A stretch of DNA of 64,000 bases, from positions 124,001 to 188,000 of the forward strand of contig JAFKFH010000009.1 of assembly GCA_017307375.1 (NCBI GenBank), in the 5' to 3' direction. A model generated the notes under the pieces. That model did no database searches. It was not told where the DNA came from and was given only the letters and a program-made list of their open reading frames with translations. A program made the position numbers and the translations under genes. Numbering within the stretch: position 1 is the first letter of the stretch; each line of letters begins with the position of its first letter. This document shows, in pieces, positions 21,811 to 28,310 of the stretch. The DNA is from Alphaproteobacteria bacterium. Lineage in GTDB: Bacteria; Pseudomonadota; Alphaproteobacteria; Ferrovibrionales; Ferrovibrionaceae.

Positions 21811-22608
21811 TCAGGTAAGTTGCTGACGCAGGCGGGCGGGCTGGGCGACTTCCCGGCGGGAAGGCCTGAACAGTTCCGCCGCCGAGAGCCAGTCGGCCTC
21901 GTCCGACAGCGGCGAGCGCATCAGCAGCCAGGCCAGGGAATCCCAGATCTGCCGGTCATGAGCCGGGTGATGGGTCAGCAGCCCGAGCGGCTCGTCCCAC
22001 AGCATGCGCAGGCGCCGGTGGCGCAGGGCATGGGCAACACGCGCGGCGAGTTGTCGGCGGCCGAGCGTGCCGCCGTTCTCGCCGCCGGCGAGGCGCACAT
22101 GCGCGTCGATACGCGGAACGCCGATCAGGGCGCTCAGCATGCCGAAGCCGGACAGCCCGACAAGGCCGCTCAGGACCGCCGCCGAGGTCAGGTTGGCCGG
22201 GATCTGGACCCAGGACGGCGCATCCGGCACATCGGCCGGCACGACGTAGACCGGCAGGTAGCCGACGAAGGCATCATAGACCTGCGCCGATGCCTGCAGT
22301 TTCCTGGCCAGGGTCTCGATCCGGCAGTCCGGGTCCAGCGACTCGTTGCCGAAGCCGCCGCCCAGCTGCAGCACCGAGGCGAGCGCGGCCGGATTGAGAC
22401 AGTCGCTCAACGACATCCTGTCGCACCAGGGATCGACGGCGAGACTGACCGGAACGCCCGCCTGCCAGGACAGCGCCAGCAATCGCTGCAGCGCCGGCGT
22501 GGCCATTCGTGCGCCGTCGTCACGCCACCACAGCCGCGGCCGATGCCCGGCCTTGCGCCATGCCCGCAGCTCGAGCCAGAGCGGCAGGTGCTCCATCGTC
22601 ATGATCAT
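21811..22608 (-). CDS. Polysaccharide-deacetylase-like protein
   Basis: A 265-aa protein. The N-terminal segment RLWWRDDGARMATPALQRLL and then VPVSLAVDP match the first strand and metal-site region of polysaccharide deacetylase-like (NodB-fold) proteins, where WWRDDDA is typical. The expected second metal-binding His pair is not clear, so activity is uncertain. The start at 22608 is preferred; the in-frame extension to 22812 has a Cys/Arg-rich non-conserved sequence. It lies 12 nt upstream of flgE and may be transcribed with the flagellar genes. Confidence 0.65.
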   Translation of the reverse strand: MIMTMEHLPLWLELRAWRKAGHRPRLWWRDDGARMATPALQRLLALSWQAGVPVSLAVDPWCDRMSLSDCLNPAALASVLQLGGGFGNESLDPDCRIETLARKLQASAQVYDAFVGYLPVYVVPADVPDAPSWVQIPANLTSAAVLSGLVGLSGFGMLSALIGVPRIDAHVRLAGGENGGTLGRRQLAARVAHALRHRRLRMLWDEPLGLLTHHPAHDRQIWDSLAWLLMRSPLSDEADWLSAAELFRPSRREVAQPARLRQQLT

Positions 22609-22752
22609 CGGACACGCCTTTCCAATCCGCTTTCGGGTGCCGAGCGAGCGACACGGCGAACAACGGATCGACCGTATGGCGCGAGCGTGGATGGCGGATG
22701 GGCCGATGATCGAGATTGTGCAGGGACGCTTCGCGCCCGGCTGCCGAACCCG

Positions 22753-22770
22753 GATATACGAAGGTATATC
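22753..22770. promoter_or_regulatory. 7-bp inverted repeat upstream of the mgtA leader ORFs
   Basis: GATATAC, GAAG, GTATATC form a perfect dyad about 110 bp before the first leader ORF. It is AT-rich within GC-rich DNA, which suits an operator or promoter element. The binding protein is unknown. Confidence 0.4.
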
Positions 22771-22881
22771 GACGATGGCCAAACTCAGCCCGAATCGATC
22801 CACCTTTCCCACTGGGCGACGCGGGCGCCCGGTGATACTCGATCGTCGCCGTCCGCAGGACGGCTGAAAGAGGAACGGACG

Positions 22882-22938
22882 ATGCCAAGCGACAGTAGTC
22901 GAGGGCGCGTGCCGTCTGGGCTGGCCCGCGCGGACTGA
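22882..22938 (+). CDS. Candidate leader peptide 1 of mgtA (18 aa)
   Basis: The peptide is MPSDSSRGRVPSGLARAD. AGAGGA lies 7 nt before the ATG. It is the first of two small ORFs upstream of mgtA; its stop is 6 nt before the large hairpin at 22945. No homologue is known to me. It may couple translation to leader folding. Confidence 0.4.
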   Translation: MPSDSSRGRVPSGLARAD

Positions 22939-22944
22939 ATCCCG

Positions 22945-22974
22945 CCGTGACGGCCGCAGACGGCTGCGTCACGG
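22945..22974 (+). promoter_or_regulatory. Hairpin overlapping the ribosome-binding site of leader ORF 2
   Basis: CCGTGACG (22945-22952) pairs with CGTCACGG (22967-22974); an inner stem GCCG/CGGC encloses the loop CAGA. The 3' arm overlaps GGAGGTGAG, the ribosome-binding site of the 26-codon ORF. There is no T-run, so it is not an intrinsic terminator. It would control access to the leader ORF. Confidence 0.55.
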
Positions 22975-22983
22975 AGGTGAGAG

Positions 22984-23064
22984 ATGAAAAACCGGATTCG
23001 TGTCTGGTTCGCGGTCCTGGTCCATTTGCTTGCGGACTATGAACGGGGCCGTGGCGCCACCTGA
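22984..23064 (+). CDS. Candidate leader peptide 2 of mgtA (26 aa)
   Basis: ATG at 22984 with GGAGG 6 nt upstream; 26 codons, stop at 23062-23064. The peptide starts MKNRIRVWFAVLVHLLADY and ends ERGRGAT, so it has a basic start and a hydrophobic core, and could be a small membrane peptide or a stalling leader. It lies 71 nt before mgtA. Confidence 0.5.
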   Translation: MKNRIRVWFAVLVHLLADYERGRGAT

Positions 23065-23107
23065 GCGGGGCGCGCGCAAAACCAAGTCATTCGTTGACGA
23101 CCATCAG

Positions 23108-23125
23108 CCGGGCTGTCACGCCCGG
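23108..23125 (+). promoter_or_regulatory. Hairpin at the mgtA ribosome-binding site
   Basis: CCGGGC, loop TGTCAC, GCCCGG form a perfect 6-bp stem. The purine-rich GGGGGAAAAA just after it is the mgtA ribosome-binding site, 10 nt before the ATG. The stem edge borders the site and may limit ribosome loading. Confidence 0.5.
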
Positions 23126-23135
23126 GGGAAAAATC

Positions 23136-25841
23136 ATGAGCACCATGGAAAAGGATGTCGCGGCGCGCGGGCGCCGCGACACGCGCAAGCTGTCGACGCG
23201 GGCCATCCGCGAGGCCGGCAACACGCTCGACCTCACCTTCCTCAATGTCGACGGCGATCCCGACGGGCTGACCGAGGCCGATGCCGGGCGGCGCCTCGCC
23301 AAGGACGGCCCGAACGATGTGGCACGCGAGCGCCGGCTGCCCGCGCTCGTCCAGCTGGCACTGGCCTTCCGGAATCCCTTCATCGCCGTGCTGGCCGCGC
23401 TGGCGGCGGTCAGCACCTTCACCGACATCTGGCTGCCGGTCGAGCGGGGGGAAGACGCCGATCCGACCAAGGTAGTGATCATCGCCGTCATGGTGCTGCT
23501 CAGCGGCCTAATGCGCTTCTTCCAGGAGTATCGCTCGGCCCGCGCGGCCGAGGCGCTGAAGGCCATGGTCGGCACGACGGCAACCGTTATCCGCCGGGGC
23601 TCGCCGCAGGAAGGCCCGGTCGCCCGCGAGATCCCGATGCGCGACCTGGTGGTCGGCGATATCGTGACGCTCGCGGCCGGCGACATGGTTCCCGCCGACC
23701 TCAGGCTCATCCGGTCCCGCGATCTCTTCGTCAGCCAGGCAGCGCTGACCGGCGAGGCCATTCCGGTCGAGAAATACGACACCCTCGGCGCCGTGGCAGC
23801 CAAGTCCGCGACCATGACCGGCGGCGGCGAAGCCGAGGCGCTGGACACGTCGAACATCTGTTTCATGGGCACCAGCGTCGTCAGCGGGACGGCGCAGGCC
23901 GTCGTCGTCGCGACGGGTGCGCGCACCTATTTCGGTTCGCTGGCCAAGGCGATCGTCGGATCACGCGCGCAGACCGCGTTCGACCGCGGCATCAACAGCG
24001 TCTCGTGGCTGCTGATCCGCTTCATGCTGGTGATGGTGCCGGTCGTTTTCGTGATCAACGGCGTGACCAAGGGCGACTGGCTCGAGGCGATGCTGTTCGG
24101 CCTTGCCGTGGCGGTCGGGCTGACCCCCGAAATGCTGCCGATGATCGTCTCCTCGAACCTCGCCAAGGGGGCGGTGGCGATGGCGCGCCAGAAGGTCGTC
24201 GTCAAGCGGCTGAACGCCATCCAAAACTTCGGTGCGATGGACGTGCTCTGCACCGACAAGACCGGTACCCTGACGATGGACAAGGTCCTGCTCGAACGTC
24301 ATCTCGACGCCGACGGCCGGGATGACGAGTCGGTGCTGGGATTGGCGTGGCTGAACAGCCATCACCAGACTGGTGGCCGCAACCTCATGGATCAGGCGGT
24401 CCTGCATTGCGCCGCCGGCCGGCCGGCCCTTGCCGGCGCGCCCGCCGTCAAGATCGACGAGCTGCCGTTCGATTTCGCCCGCCGCCGCCTGTCGGTCGTG
24501 GTGGAGGGGGCCGGGGGCGGTCACCGCCTGATCTGCAAGGGCGCCGTCGAGGAGATGCTGTCGATCGCGACCCGCGTTCGACGGGGGACAGAGGACGTGC
24601 CGCTCGATCGGGCCGAGCGCGAGCGGATCGCCGCGCTTACGCGATCCTGGAACGAGGATGGCTTCCGCGTCCTCGTGGTCGCCACGCGCGACATCCCGGC
24701 GGACCTGGCCCGGCCCCGCTACACGGTCGATGACGAGATTGCGCTGACCATCCGCGGCTTCCTGACCTTCCTCGATCCCCCGAAGGAGACCGCCGCGCCG
24801 GCACTGGCCGCACTGGCCGCCCATGGCGTCAAGGTCAAGGTCCTGACCGGCGACAATGCGATCGTCACCGCGCGGATCTGCCGCGAGGTCGGCATCGACC
24901 CGGGCAAGCCGGTCCTGGGGCGCGAGATCGAGGTGATGGACGAGGCCGTACTGCGCCGCACGGTCGAGGAATGCACCGTCTTCGCCAAGCTCGCCCCGCT
25001 TCAGAAATCACGCGTGCTGCGCGCGCTGCAGGCGAACGGACATACCGTCGGCTTCCTGGGCGACGGCATCAACGATGCGGCCGCGCTGCGCGATGCCGAT
25101 GTCGGCATTTCGGTCGACAGCGGCGCCGACATCGCCAAGGAGTCGGCCGACATCATCCTGCTGGAAAAGAGCCTGCTGGTCCTGGAACTGGGGGTCGTGA
25201 AGGGGCGGGAAACCTTCGGCAACATCCTCAAGTACCTGAACCTGACGGCTTCTTCCAACTTCGGCAACGTCTTCTCGGTACTGGTGGCCAGTGCTTTCCT
25301 GCCGTTCCTGCCGATGTTGTCGATCCATCTGCTGGTCCAGAACCTGATGTACGACATCTCGCAGCTTGCCTTGCCCTGGGACCGGATGGACGAGGAATTC
25401 CTGAGCCGCCCGCGCAAGTGGGACGCCGGAAACATCGGCCGGTTCATGCTGTGGATCGGGCCGACCTCGTCGATCTTCGACGTGACGACTTTTGCCCTGA
25501 TGTGGTTCGTCTTCGGCGCCAACGCGCCCGAGCATCAGGCCTTGTTCCAGTCCGGCTGGTTTGTCGAAGGATTGCTGTCCCAGACCCTGGTCGTCCACAT
25601 GCTGCGCACCCGGAAGATCCCGTTCGTGCAGAGCACGGCGGCCCTGCCGGTGCTGCTGATGTCGGTCCTGGTCAGCGTTCTCGGCATCTGGCTGCCGTTC
25701 TCCGGCATCGGGGCGGATATCGGCCTGCAGCCGTTGCCGTGGGCGTACTTTCCCTGGCTGGTCGCGACCCTGGTCGGCTACTGCCTGGTCGCGCAGACGA
25801 TGAAGCAGGTCTACATGCGCCGCTTCGGCAGGTGGTTCTGA
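23136..25841 (+). CDS. mgtA: Magnesium-translocating P-type ATPase MgtA
   Basis: Imports Mg2+ across the inner membrane using ATP; 901 aa, the usual MgtA/MgtB size. The phosphorylation motif DKTGT is at Asp374. The actuator motif ALTGEAIPVEK and hinge GDGINDAAALRDADVGISVDSG (short motif) are present, as are C-terminal TM segments with LPFLPMLSIHLLVQNL (short motif). The start at 23136 has a strong GGGGGAAAAA ribosome-binding site; an upstream in-frame ATG at 23094 would overlap the leader hairpin. It is co-transcribed with mgtC, whose ATG is 2 nt after its stop. Confidence 0.93.
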   Translation: MSTMEKDVAARGRRDTRKLSTRAIREAGNTLDLTFLNVDGDPDGLTEADAGRRLAKDGPNDVARERRLPALVQLALAFRNPFIAVLAALAAVSTFTDIWLPVERGEDADPTKVVIIAVMVLLSGLMRFFQEYRSARAAEALKAMVGTTATVIRRGSPQEGPVAREIPMRDLVVGDIVTLAAGDMVPADLRLIRSRDLFVSQAALTGEAIPVEKYDTLGAVAAKSATMTGGGEAEALDTSNICFMGTSVVSGTAQAVVVATGARTYFGSLAKAIVGSRAQTAFDRGINSVSWLLIRFMLVMVPVVFVINGVTKGDWLEAMLFGLAVAVGLTPEMLPMIVSSNLAKGAVAMARQKVVVKRLNAIQNFGAMDVLCTDKTGTLTMDKVLLERHLDADGRDDESVLGLAWLNSHHQTGGRNLMDQAVLHCAAGRPALAGAPAVKIDELPFDFARRRLSVVVEGAGGGHRLICKGAVEEMLSIATRVRRGTEDVPLDRAERERIAALTRSWNEDGFRVLVVATRDIPADLARPRYTVDDEIALTIRGFLTFLDPPKETAAPALAALAAHGVKVKVLTGDNAIVTARICREVGIDPGKPVLGREIEVMDEAVLRRTVEECTVFAKLAPLQKSRVLRALQANGHTVGFLGDGINDAAALRDADVGISVDSGADIAKESADIILLEKSLLVLELGVVKGRETFGNILKYLNLTASSNFGNVFSVLVASAFLPFLPMLSIHLLVQNLMYDISQLALPWDRMDEEFLSRPRKWDAGNIGRFMLWIGPTSSIFDVTTFALMWFVFGANAPEHQALFQSGWFVEGLLSQTLVVHMLRTRKIPFVQSTAALPVLLMSVLVSVLGIWLPFSGIGADIGLQPLPWAYFPWLVATLVGYCLVAQTMKQVYMRRFGRWF

Positions 25842-25843
25842 TC

Positions 25844-26542
25844 ATGGACTGGCAGGCACTTCTTCATACCGCGCTGGCGCTTGGCGGGGCTTTCCTGCTG
25901 GGCGGACTGATCGGCTTCGAGCGCCAGTGGCGCCAGCGCCTGGCCGGGCTGCGGACGAATACGCTGGTGGCGCTCGGGGCCGCCACCTTCGTCCTTTTTG
26001 CCGGGCTGTTCCCGGGCGAGCAGAGCCCGACCCGGATCGCCGCCCAGATCGTTTCCGGCATCGGCTTTCTCGGGGCGGGCATCATCTTCAAGGAGGGGCT
26101 GAACGTGCGCGGCCTGAACACGGCCGCAACCCTCTGGTGCTCGGCGGCGATCGGGGCGATGTGCGGGGCCGGCTTCTTCCTGCACGCGCTGGTGGCCACC
26201 CTGTTCGTCATCGTGGTCAATGCGCTGCTGCGTCCCCTGGTCCGGCTGATCGGCGATCGGCCGATGGCACAGTCCGAGCTCGACGGTGCCTATTCGATTA
26301 CCATCGTCTGCCTCGCCCAGGCCGAAGCGCATGTCCGCGCGCTGCTGCTGCGCGATCTCGGCACGGCGTTGCATATCCGCGAACTGGAAAGCGCCGATAT
26401 CGACGAGGGCACCCGCGTCACGGTCAGCGCGACCGTGCGGGCGGAGGAGCGGCAGGACCGGCTGCTCGAACAGATCATCGGCCGCCTCAGCCTCGAACCG
26501 ACGGTCTCGGCGGCGCGCTGGCGCTTCGAGGCCGGGGATTGA
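25844..26542 (+). CDS. mgtC: MgtC/SapB family protein
   Basis: An inner-membrane protein of 232 aa. The N-terminal MgtC domain has about four to five TM segments with LLGGLIGFERQWRQRLAGLRTN and IGFLGAGIIFKEGLNVRGLNTAATLW (short motifs), followed by a C-terminal ACT-like cytosolic domain (about residues 145-230). Known MgtC proteins lower F-ATPase activity and aid growth at low Mg2+. The start at 25844, 2 nt after the mgtA stop, shows tight coupling. Same leader control as mgtA is expected. Confidence 0.92.
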   Translation: MDWQALLHTALALGGAFLLGGLIGFERQWRQRLAGLRTNTLVALGAATFVLFAGLFPGEQSPTRIAAQIVSGIGFLGAGIIFKEGLNVRGLNTAATLWCSAAIGAMCGAGFFLHALVATLFVIVVNALLRPLVRLIGDRPMAQSELDGAYSITIVCLAQAEAHVRALLLRDLGTALHIRELESADIDEGTRVTVSATVRAEERQDRLLEQIIGRLSLEPTVSAARWRFEAGD

Positions 26543-26604: not shown

Positions 26605-27675
26605 ATGCTGTCGATGACCATTCTGCGAAGCCGCACCAGGCTGCGTTCACCGCTTCCGCCCGTGGCCTGTGCCGTGGCGATGGCCGCAATCTTCGCCGTC
26701 GATACCCTGACCGACTATGCGATCGCGGCGGCGGTGTTCTATACGGCCGTGATCCTCGCGGCGACCCCGCTGCTGTCGGGCCGGGCCGTCATCGTGCTGG
26801 CAGCCGGCTGCGTCGCGCTGACCCTGCTGAGCTTCTTCATGACGCGTGGCGGCAGCTACGAAGTCGGCGTGATCAATACCGGGATCAGCATCTTCGCCAT
26901 CGCCGTGACGGCCTATCTCGGTTCGCGGATGATGGCCGCGGAAGCCGCCGCCCGCGAAGCGCAGGACCGCCTGTCGCGCATCGCCAGGGTCACCAGCGTC
27001 GGGGCGCTGATGGCGGCGATCGCCCATGAAATCAACCAGCCGCTTGCCGCAATCGCGGCGAGCGGGGGGGCCGGCATCCGCTGGCTCGGCCAGTCCCCGC
27101 CGAACCTCGAACGCGCCCGCCGGACGCTCGAGCGCATTGTCGACGACGCCGAACGCGCCAGCGCCGTGGTCGGACGCCTGCGGTCGCTGGCACGGGGCGA
27201 AGCGCCGCGGCGCGAGCCGTTCGATCTGGGTGCCGCCGTCGGCGAAATCATCGCCCTCAGCCGGGACGAGATCGAGCGCGCGGGAATCCGGCTCGACCTG
27301 TCGATCGACGAAGCCCTGCCGCCGGTGCTGGCCGACCGCGTGCAGATCCAGCAAGTCGTGCGCAACCTGGTGCTCAACGCCGTCGAGGCGATGGCCGGAA
27401 CGGCGGCGGCGCGGACACTCGCCGTCGCCGTGGCCTGCCGGCCGCCGCAGGGGGTCACGTTATGCGTGGCCGATACCGGGCCAGGCCTGTCGGCCGTGGC
27501 GCCAGAGCATCTTTTCGCCGCCTTCTGGACCACCAAGGCCGAGGGGCTCGGCCTGGGCCTGGCAATCAGCCGGACCCTCGTCGAGGCCAATGGCGGCCAG
27601 ATCGCGGCAGAGGCGGGAAGCGGCGGCGGTGCCCTGTTCCGCGTCACCTTGCCAGTCGCCGGCGGAGCCTCGTGA
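26605..27675 (+). CDS. Membrane sensor histidine kinase
   Basis: A 356-aa kinase with three to four N-terminal TM segments and almost no periplasmic loop, so it probably senses within the membrane. The HisKA box is AHEINQPLAAIAASGGA with phospho-His (about residue 142). Then come N-box LVLNAVEAM, G1 ADTGPGLS and G2 GLGLGLAIS motifs of the HATPase_c domain. The type resembles FixL/TodS-family kinases (HEINQPL). The start is at 26605 or 26614. It overlaps its response regulator gene by one base. Confidence 0.9.
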   Translation: MLSMTILRSRTRLRSPLPPVACAVAMAAIFAVDTLTDYAIAAAVFYTAVILAATPLLSGRAVIVLAAGCVALTLLSFFMTRGGSYEVGVINTGISIFAIAVTAYLGSRMMAAEAAAREAQDRLSRIARVTSVGALMAAIAHEINQPLAAIAASGGAGIRWLGQSPPNLERARRTLERIVDDAERASAVVGRLRSLARGEAPRREPFDLGAAVGEIIALSRDEIERAGIRLDLSIDEALPPVLADRVQIQQVVRNLVLNAVEAMAGTAAARTLAVAVACRPPQGVTLCVADTGPGLSAVAPEHLFAAFWTTKAEGLGLGLAISRTLVEANGGQIAAEAGSGGGALFRVTLPVAGGAS

Positions 27676-28310
27676 TGCAGGCGGCAAAGCCGGTCGTCTA
27701 CGTCGTCGACGACGACCGGTCGGTCCGCGATGCCCTGGAGGACCTGCTCGCCTCGGTCGGAATCGAGGTGCGCACCTTCGCCTCGGTCCGCGATTTTCTC
27801 GATCAGGGAATGGCCGCCGCCCCGGGCTGCCTGGTGCTCGATGTCCGCATGCCCGGCCAGGGCGGCCTCGACTTCCATCGCCAGATGGCCGAGCTGGGCT
27901 TGCGCCTGCCGACGATCTTCATCACCGGCCATGGCGATATCGCGATGGGTGTGAACGCGGTCAAGGCCGGTGCCATCGACTTCCTGGCCAAGCCGTTCCG
28001 CGATCAGGAGCTGATCGATGCGATCCAGCGCGGTATCGCGCTGGACGAGACCCGAAGGCGCGAGGAAGCGGACGCCGAGGAACTGGCACGCCGGTGGGCA
28101 ACCCTCAACCCGGGCGAGCAGGATGTCCTCAGGCTGATTGCCAGGGGCCTGCTCAACAAGCAGGTCGCCGGCGAGCTCGGCGTCAGCGAGATCACGGTGA
28201 AGGTGCGCCGCGGCCGCGTGATGCGCAAGATGGGTGCCCGGACCCTCGTCGATCTGGTGCGCATGGCTGACCGGTTGCATCCACCCGACGGTCCGACGCG
28301 CGAACGCTGA
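27675..28310 (+). CDS. FixJ/TtrR-type response regulator
   Basis: A 211-aa regulator. The receiver has VVDDD, phospho-Asp56 (LVLDVRMPG), and Lys near residue 106 (FLAKPF). The C-terminal LuxR-type HTH is LNPGEQDVLRLIARGLLNKQVAGELGVSEITVKVRRGRVMRKM (short motif). The start at 27675 overlaps the kinase stop (TGATG). It most likely receives phosphate from the kinase just upstream. Confidence 0.93.
   Translation: MQAAKPVVYVVDDDRSVRDALEDLLASVGIEVRTFASVRDFLDQGMAAAPGCLVLDVRMPGQGGLDFHRQMAELGLRLPTIFITGHGDIAMGVNAVKAGAIDFLAKPFRDQELIDAIQRGIALDETRRREEADAEELARRWATLNPGEQDVLRLIARGLLNKQVAGELGVSEITVKVRRGRVMRKMGARTLVDLVRMADRLHPPDGPTRER

Follow-up and report, generated by a model that had tools for sequence, protein, structure and literature searches.

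A leader peptide gene and two competing RNA helices upstream of mgtA form a putative translation-controlled switch in Alpha- and Betaproteobacteria

Here we describe the leader of an mgtA gene in a 64,000-nt stretch of an alphaproteobacterial contig (JAFKFH010000009.1; hereafter, the window). The leader is 524 bp long and holds two small ORFs, uORF1 and ORF2, each with a Shine-Dalgarno (SD) sequence. The RNA can form two competing helices: region 1, which spans codon 8 to the stop of uORF1, is complementary to the first ~34 nt past that stop (region 2), which can pair also with the segment that holds the SD of ORF2 (region 3). Both helices, 1:2 and 2:3, have lineage-specific sequences, and their pairing is kept by compensating changes. 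Conservation of both pairings in this manner shows that folding of the leader RNA is under selection, and the movement of ribosomes over codons 8-18 must bear on the choice of helix. The leader is probably an attenuator controlled by translation, where ribosomes on uORF1 choose between 1:2 and 2:3, and where their drop-off at low Mg2+ turns on ORF2 and mgtA. The features of the locus are as follows.

22754-22769, no strand: perfect palindrome ATATAC-GAAG-GTATAT, likely bound by the FixJ-like response regulator of the operon
22868-22875, forward: SD-like sequence of uORF1, AAGAGGAA, 7 nt upstream of the ATG (from sequence)
22882-22938, forward: uORF1, ATG start, 18 codons, MPSDSSRGRVPSGLARAD, leader peptide conserved in relatives
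22904-22933, forward: region 1, uORF1 codons 8-18, 5′ arm of helix 1:2
22942-22970, forward: region 2, 3′ arm of helix 1:2; its 5′ part doubles as the left arm of hairpin 2:3
22940-22980, forward: hairpin 2:3 (arms 22940-22956 and 22961-22980), which buries the ORF2 SD (folding and swap test)
22973-22977, forward: region 3, ORF2 SD GGAGG (from sequence; AGG core invariant in 11 sequences)
22984-23064, forward: ORF2, 26 codons, MKNRIRVWFAVLVHLLADYERGRGAT, shortened counterpart of a PA4826-like small protein of 60-106 aa in relatives
23108-23125, forward: small hairpin (23108-23113 with 23120-23125) beside the weak mgtA SD (folding; not above chance)
23136-25841, forward: mgtA, Mg2+-translocating P-type ATPase of the MgtB-like subfamily, 901 aa (TIGR01524, 1337 bits; PRK15122, 1609 bits)
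25844-26542, forward: MgtC/SapB family protein (PF02308, E = 8e-40)
26614-27675, forward: membrane histidine kinase, start approximate (HisKA, HATPase_c)
27675-28310, forward: FixJ/NarL-type response regulator (Response_reg and GerE)

An earlier note on this DNA had named the pump gene mgtA, and both TIGR01524 and PRK15122 identify its product as a Mg2+ P-type ATPase. Helix 1:2, the palindrome at 22754-22769 and the mgtC, kinase and regulator genes downstream were absent from that note. Presumably, mgtC is co-transcribed with mgtA. An mgtA gene at this level of similarity was missing from the 17 genomes of the same family that were searched (best 44%), which suggests that the operon was acquired by transfer. 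Related mgtA copies occur on plasmids of Paracoccus, Shinella, Phyllobacterium, and Ochrobactrum.

Direct DNA searches with the leader returned no relatives in genomes of the same family or class or in plasmids. Relatives were reached only through similarity of the MgtA protein, and 80 loci whose MgtA proteins are most similar were taken. Many of these carry a short M-x-x-D-S-S-R ORF upstream of mgtA. Examples include Sphingomonas (MQCDSSRETAPLSPSGRS and MSCDSSRKSASLPPSGRD), Bradyrhizobium (MPSDSSRASVPLRSFSRV), Ochrobactrum/Brucella (MPSDSSRKLSPLGLFGES and similar), and the betaproteobacterium Alcaligenes (L096; MSSDDSRRKMLHRPLRRY). Plasmids added copies of Shinella (MPSDSSRESTPLRPAGRA) and Paracoccus (MPDDSRRCRRRMRGRG). 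Length, N-terminus, and a spacing of 101-109 nt from the uORF1 ATG to that of the next ORF are common to all these lineages. Nearly always, uORF1 has 18 codons and begins with MPSDSSR; among ten compared loci, all of them found via MgtA similarity, nine have exactly this length.

Codons 4-7 of uORF1 (GAC-AGT-AGT-CGA) are nearly invariant across the compared loci. Two of these codons are rare, AGT accounting for 1 of 44 serine codons and CGA for 2 of 68 arginine codons in mgtA of the window. Asp stands at codon 4 in the compared peptides (positions 3-4 in L106) and is the single acidic residue in the N-terminal stretch of the window's peptide. Since synonymous positions in codons 4-7 hardly vary, and CGAC and GTCG are kept even where the intervening loop differs (L096 and L106), one might read the conserved CGAC-N4-GTCG as an RNA mini-hairpin or a protein-binding site for which the peptide is irrelevant. 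This explanation is rather improbable: the frame, start, SD, and 18-codon length of uORF1 are all kept, and distant uORFs that lie next to mgtA, described below, retain [DE]..SR without the CGAC/GTCG stem. A separate hairpin before uORF1 (22839-22892) was rejected as an element, as its stability was not above chance (z = -0.84).

Helix 1:2 of the window (22904-22933 with 22942-22970) has a folding energy of -44.5 kcal/mol (z = -3.5). For hairpin 2:3, the corresponding values are -24.4 kcal/mol and z = -3.8, and none of 200 shuffles was as stable, in keeping with the earlier proposal of a hairpin over the second ribosome-binding site. A MAFFT alignment gave a weak RNAalifold consensus (-4 kcal/mol), since the 3′ arm was misaligned, and alignment-free swap tests were used in its place. 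In these, duplex energies of a lineage's own regions were compared with those of cross-lineage combinations over all permutations, with row and column means removed. The borders of region 1 and of regions 2 and 3 combined were fixed by ORF limits, and the cut between 2 and 3 was picked after inspection. Kinship among lineages should improve the swapped pairs, so the test is conservative. With eight lineages, own 1:2 pairs averaged -40.6 kcal/mol vs. -30.0 for swapped pairs, and only 2 of 40,320 permutations were as good (p = 5e-5); for 2:3, 65 of 40,320 were as good (p = 1.6e-3). Five unrelated region pairs that served as controls gave p values of 0.13-0.78. With 11 lineages, the means were -40.9 vs. 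-32.6 kcal/mol for 1:2 (0 of 200,000 permutations, p = 5e-6) and -27.0 vs. -20.1 kcal/mol for 2:3 (9 of 200,000, p = 5e-5). Moreover, the real codons 8-18 of uORF1 pair better than random synonymous recodings (Fisher p = 8e-11, eight lineages), and thus the 1:2 complementarity is no by-product of the peptide. In two copies, L111 (p = 0.25) and a second copy in the window's own genome (p = 0.36), the 1:2 duplex was no better than shuffles. The high GC content of the region raises the question of whether these are chance hairpins and fortuitous ORFs, and the hairpin next to mgtA is indeed not significant; conservation and covariation across classes refute this explanation for uORF1 and both helices, leaving it with a negligible probability overall.

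In the mechanism that we favor, ribosomes in cells with enough Mg2+ would read through uORF1 and cover region 1, and the 2:3 hairpin would hide the SD of ORF2 (off). At low Mg2+, they would drop off at the N-terminal D-S-S-R, which combines an acidic residue with the rare AGT-AGT-CGA codons. Region 1 would thereby be freed, helix 1:2 would form, and the SD of ORF2 would be exposed; coupling or escape from Rho could then allow expression of ORF2 and, after it, of mgtA. An untranslated uORF1 should free this SD because it sits in 2:3, which 1:2 destroys, and because 1:2 is the more stable helix. We infer the direction of switching, with 1:2 as the on state, and gene context alone points to Mg2+ as the signal.

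The logic could also be the opposite, with 1:2 as the off state and with translating or stalled ribosomes on uORF1 turning on ORF2 and mgtA for example by keeping Rho away or by re-initiation. ORF2 starts 46 nt past the uORF1 stop, which is near enough for coupling, and equilibrium folding of the window's leader does not clearly favor the 1:2 state: no clean release of the SD was seen, its openness being 0.21 with 1:2 formed vs. 0.20 with region 1 covered. Averaged over 11 sequences, modelled openness was ~0.44 vs. 0.26 for the same two states. Against the opposite logic stand the position of the ORF2 SD inside a hairpin that 1:2 destroys and the energies of the two helices (-44.5 vs. -24.4 kcal/mol), and we regard it as unlikely.

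Downstream of the switch, the conserved feature is initiation at ORF2 and not its product, since the window and L087 keep little past the start. In relatives, ORF2 encodes a protein of 60-106 aa with the motif W[RHY][VI]-x-P-x-G-[RK]-[LV]-E-C-[RH]-W, for which no Pfam match and no significant NCBIfam match were found. Of this gene, the window retains only the SD, the start, and a short N-terminal part, and it lacks the motif; L087 retains three codons past the Met. In L020, a one-T difference in a homopolymer (T7 vs. T6) shifts the frame of ORF2; in the near-identical L021-L023, ORF2 is intact. The earlier note had rightly recognized two small ORFs with ribosome-binding sites, which are AAGAGGAA for uORF1 and a strong GGAGG for ORF2, and had proposed to look for their conservation and that of the stems among relatives; the 18-codon ORF and the stems with compensating changes are conserved, whereas ORF2 as a 26-codon peptide is not. 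Its hairpin at the mgtA site exists, but its stability is not above the chance level (z = -1.36), which 16 of 200 shuffles reached, and it was dropped as an element. L087 and L095 showed no counterpart at their mgtA starts.

Transcription of the operon may be subject to a second layer of control. TATAC-N4-GTATA occurs once in the window and at four places in the 7.5-Mb genome. Among ~95 mgtA-type loci, it is confined to those that bear uORF1, where it lies 111-143 nt upstream of this ORF. In uORF1 loci, genes for a histidine kinase and a LuxR/FixJ-type regulator come after mgtA, and the window and Paracoccus pAMI6 have an MgtC gene in between; the kinase gene lies downstream of mgtA in eight uORF1 loci and of corA in one (L164). 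Loci without uORF1 had no palindrome and, apart from one weak case on the opposite strand, no kinase/regulator pair. In the Bradyrhizobium-type loci L020-L023, the palindrome is present and no such pair lies within 3 kb; in L095, the palindrome is degenerate. TodT and other FixJ-type regulators bind palindromes with this 6-4-6 layout. We infer that the FixJ-like pair, whose genes close the operon, switches transcription through the palindrome.

Further cassettes were sought by pattern search in 398 Pseudomonadota genomes and then in one genus and one family. The cassette precedes mgtA in most loci, corA in one, an ABC transporter in one, and a small membrane protein gene across one genus; at mgtA and corA loci, it is usually joined by the TATAC-N4-GTATA palindrome and the FixJ-like pair. 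The corA locus (L164; G1141 contig C5, reverse strand) has the palindrome, uORF1, and ORF2, and behind them genes for a small membrane protein, for CorA (PF01544), and for the kinase/regulator pair. A second palindrome there precedes a PilZ-like gene, so called by its resemblance to the protein from contig C9 of the window's genome. That contig carries the second uORF1 copy of the genome (MPNDGSRQLTPPRTFRRA, 18 codons; L124:6523-6580, G000 contig C9:31522), which has a palindrome and an SD hairpin and lies directly ahead of ABC permease/ATPase genes (PF00528, PF09821). Beside it are genes for a paralogous kinase and regulator (39 and 47% identity), for an Nramp protein, and for a CsoR-like repressor. 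The region has three TATAC-N4-GTATA sites, and a palindrome also precedes a PilZ gene there.

The core motif was found in 46 of 111 genomes of one alphaproteobacterial genus. All 30 inspected copies have uORF1 with a downstream SD and ORF, and in 28 of the 30 the product of that ORF is a small membrane protein (roughly 65-130 aa); no mgtA was found near the cassette in the stretches examined. In loci L126-L155, L160, L161, and L166-L179, the protein is roughly 65-110 aa long and has a single transmembrane segment, a conserved ...VALIxxVMMSLVFxPVIGxHL... segment, and no Pfam match. Helix 1:2 covaries again in this genus (swap test p = 7e-4). Because its copies were found by means of the motif, their codons 4-7 are no independent evidence of conservation; the 1:2 pairing is. 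Since the cassette here stands ahead of a small membrane protein with no mgtA near, Mg2+ may not be the signal everywhere.

The same 1:2/2:3 switch might indeed answer to another signal, such as acid stress, another divalent cation, or a shortage of charged tRNA at the rare AGT/CGA codons or at the Pro/Leu codons 11-14. The near invariance of the AGT and CGA codons would fit such a signal, as would the small membrane protein in place of a Mg2+ transporter in one genus and the second copy ahead of an ABC transporter of unassigned substrate, beside Nramp and CsoR-like repressor genes. MgtC, too, is tied to acid as well as to low Mg2+. On the other hand, the cassette is common to two unrelated families of Mg2+ transporters (MgtA and CorA), and the nearest relatives known from experiment respond to Mg2+ limitation or ribosome instability, so that we count another signal as a lesser, though real, possibility. 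More broadly, we tentatively propose, as an idea about as apt to fail as to hold, that the D-S-S-R uORF and its switch form a self-contained sensor cassette of Alpha- and Betaproteobacteria, which has been shuffled widely and placed before MgtA, CorA, an ABC system, and a small membrane protein, and that with the FixJ-like two-component system and the TATAC-N4-GTATA operator it would define a Mg2+ (or ribosome-stability) regulon. Because it fronts such different genes, the cassette offers a route to undiscovered members of the Mg2+/cation response, as well as a test of ribosome drop-off induced by the nascent peptide as a general Mg2+ sensor.

A second kind of uORF, M-[DE]-[DE]..S-R with a hairpin directly 3′, immediately precedes mgtA in Rhizobiales, Pseudomonas, and Burkholderia, and its hairpin covaries strongly (swap p = 5e-6). 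Loci with this proximal uORF include L024, L026, L029, L033, L043, L053, L070, L107, and others, where it lies ~190-290 nt before the mgtA match. None was found in the window; it is present separately in Ochrobactrum, Phyllobacterium, and Pseudomonas. An ORF in the mgtQ position of Serratia (MDDDPGRKMIPAWLTG) is nearer to the proximal uORFs of Rhizobiales and Pseudomonas than to uORF1, and the proximal uORF is likely the counterpart of mgtQ outside enterics. Distal leaders of Pseudomonas, enterics, and Burkholderia also carry uORFs (MDTVSSR.., MNTDASCSW..; L029, L031, L063, and L107), ~550-800 nt before the mgtA match, and those of Pseudomonas share a conserved GCTAGAGCTTGATGCTCCACCGT-like segment that is not in Rfam.

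Detailed knowledge of Mg2+-responsive leader peptides comes from enterics, and the Alpha- and Betaproteobacteria have here a distinct, sequence-defined switch with strong covariation that is absent from Rfam and, as far as we found, from the open literature. Rfam searches gave no gathering-level match in the whole window, no match to Mg2+ leader families up to E = 10 in 22500-23300, and none in eight relatives; therefore, the leader is not a catalogued Mg_sensor or M-box. Likewise, literature on uORFs before mgtA outside enterics yielded no description of the uORF1 element. The earlier suggestion of an alphaproteobacterial magnesium sensor unlike mgtL or the M-box thus holds as far as the lack of an Rfam match and the unrelated sequence of mgtL are concerned, but the element also occurs in Alcaligenes and is not restricted to mgtA. 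The M-box (ykoK) riboswitch shares with our proposal a Mg2+-linked control upstream of Mg2+ transporter genes, and classical M-boxes switch without a translated ORF. The enteric mgtA gene is controlled by folding of a leader with a peptide gene of 17-18 codons, mgtL. Peptide length and control by leader folding are similar to those of uORF1, whereas the peptide and RNA sequences differ, and uORF1 is not proline-rich as mgtL is: its two prolines stand singly, at codons 2 and 11, and are replaced in some relatives (L087, L095, and L096).

In Pseudomonas aeruginosa, expression of PA4824-PA4826 responds to Mg2+, and deletion of PA4826 has no effect on fitness (PMC11218974). PA4826 is a small ORF upstream of mgtA to which the ORF2 of relatives corresponds by position; the window's ORF2 has lost the conserved domain. 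The Salmonella mgtCBR operon is driven by PhoP and has tandem attenuators, mgtM and mgtP, with alternative stem-loops; of the two peptides, the second (mgtP) is conserved and rich in proline, and that of mgtM is not conserved (PMC3641672). Tandem small ORFs, alternative stem-loops, and an operon with mgtC and a MgtB-type pump are common to mgtM/mgtP and the window, but in the window it is the first peptide that is conserved, and the operon encodes a FixJ-like pair. Also in Salmonella, mgtQ is an 8-aa uORF of the mgtC-mgtB intergenic region with early acidic residues, and alternative stems hide or free the next SD (PMC8092293). Like mgtQ, uORF1 is a short ORF ahead of a MgtB-type Mg2+ ATPase with SD-hiding alternative helices; its N-terminal stretch has one early acidic residue, fewer than reported for mgtQ. 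It differs in being distal, in its 18 codons, in its D-S-S-R with rare codons, and in the putative control of an intermediate gene, ORF2, which separates it from mgtA where mgtQ directly precedes the pump gene; there is no obvious sequence homology. Taken together, the uORF1 element belongs with the leader-peptide attenuators of Mg2+ transporters and is distinct from mgtL, mgtQ, and the M-box; by analogy, its mechanism would be nearest to those of Salmonella mgtQ and mgtL, and also to that of mgtM/mgtP.
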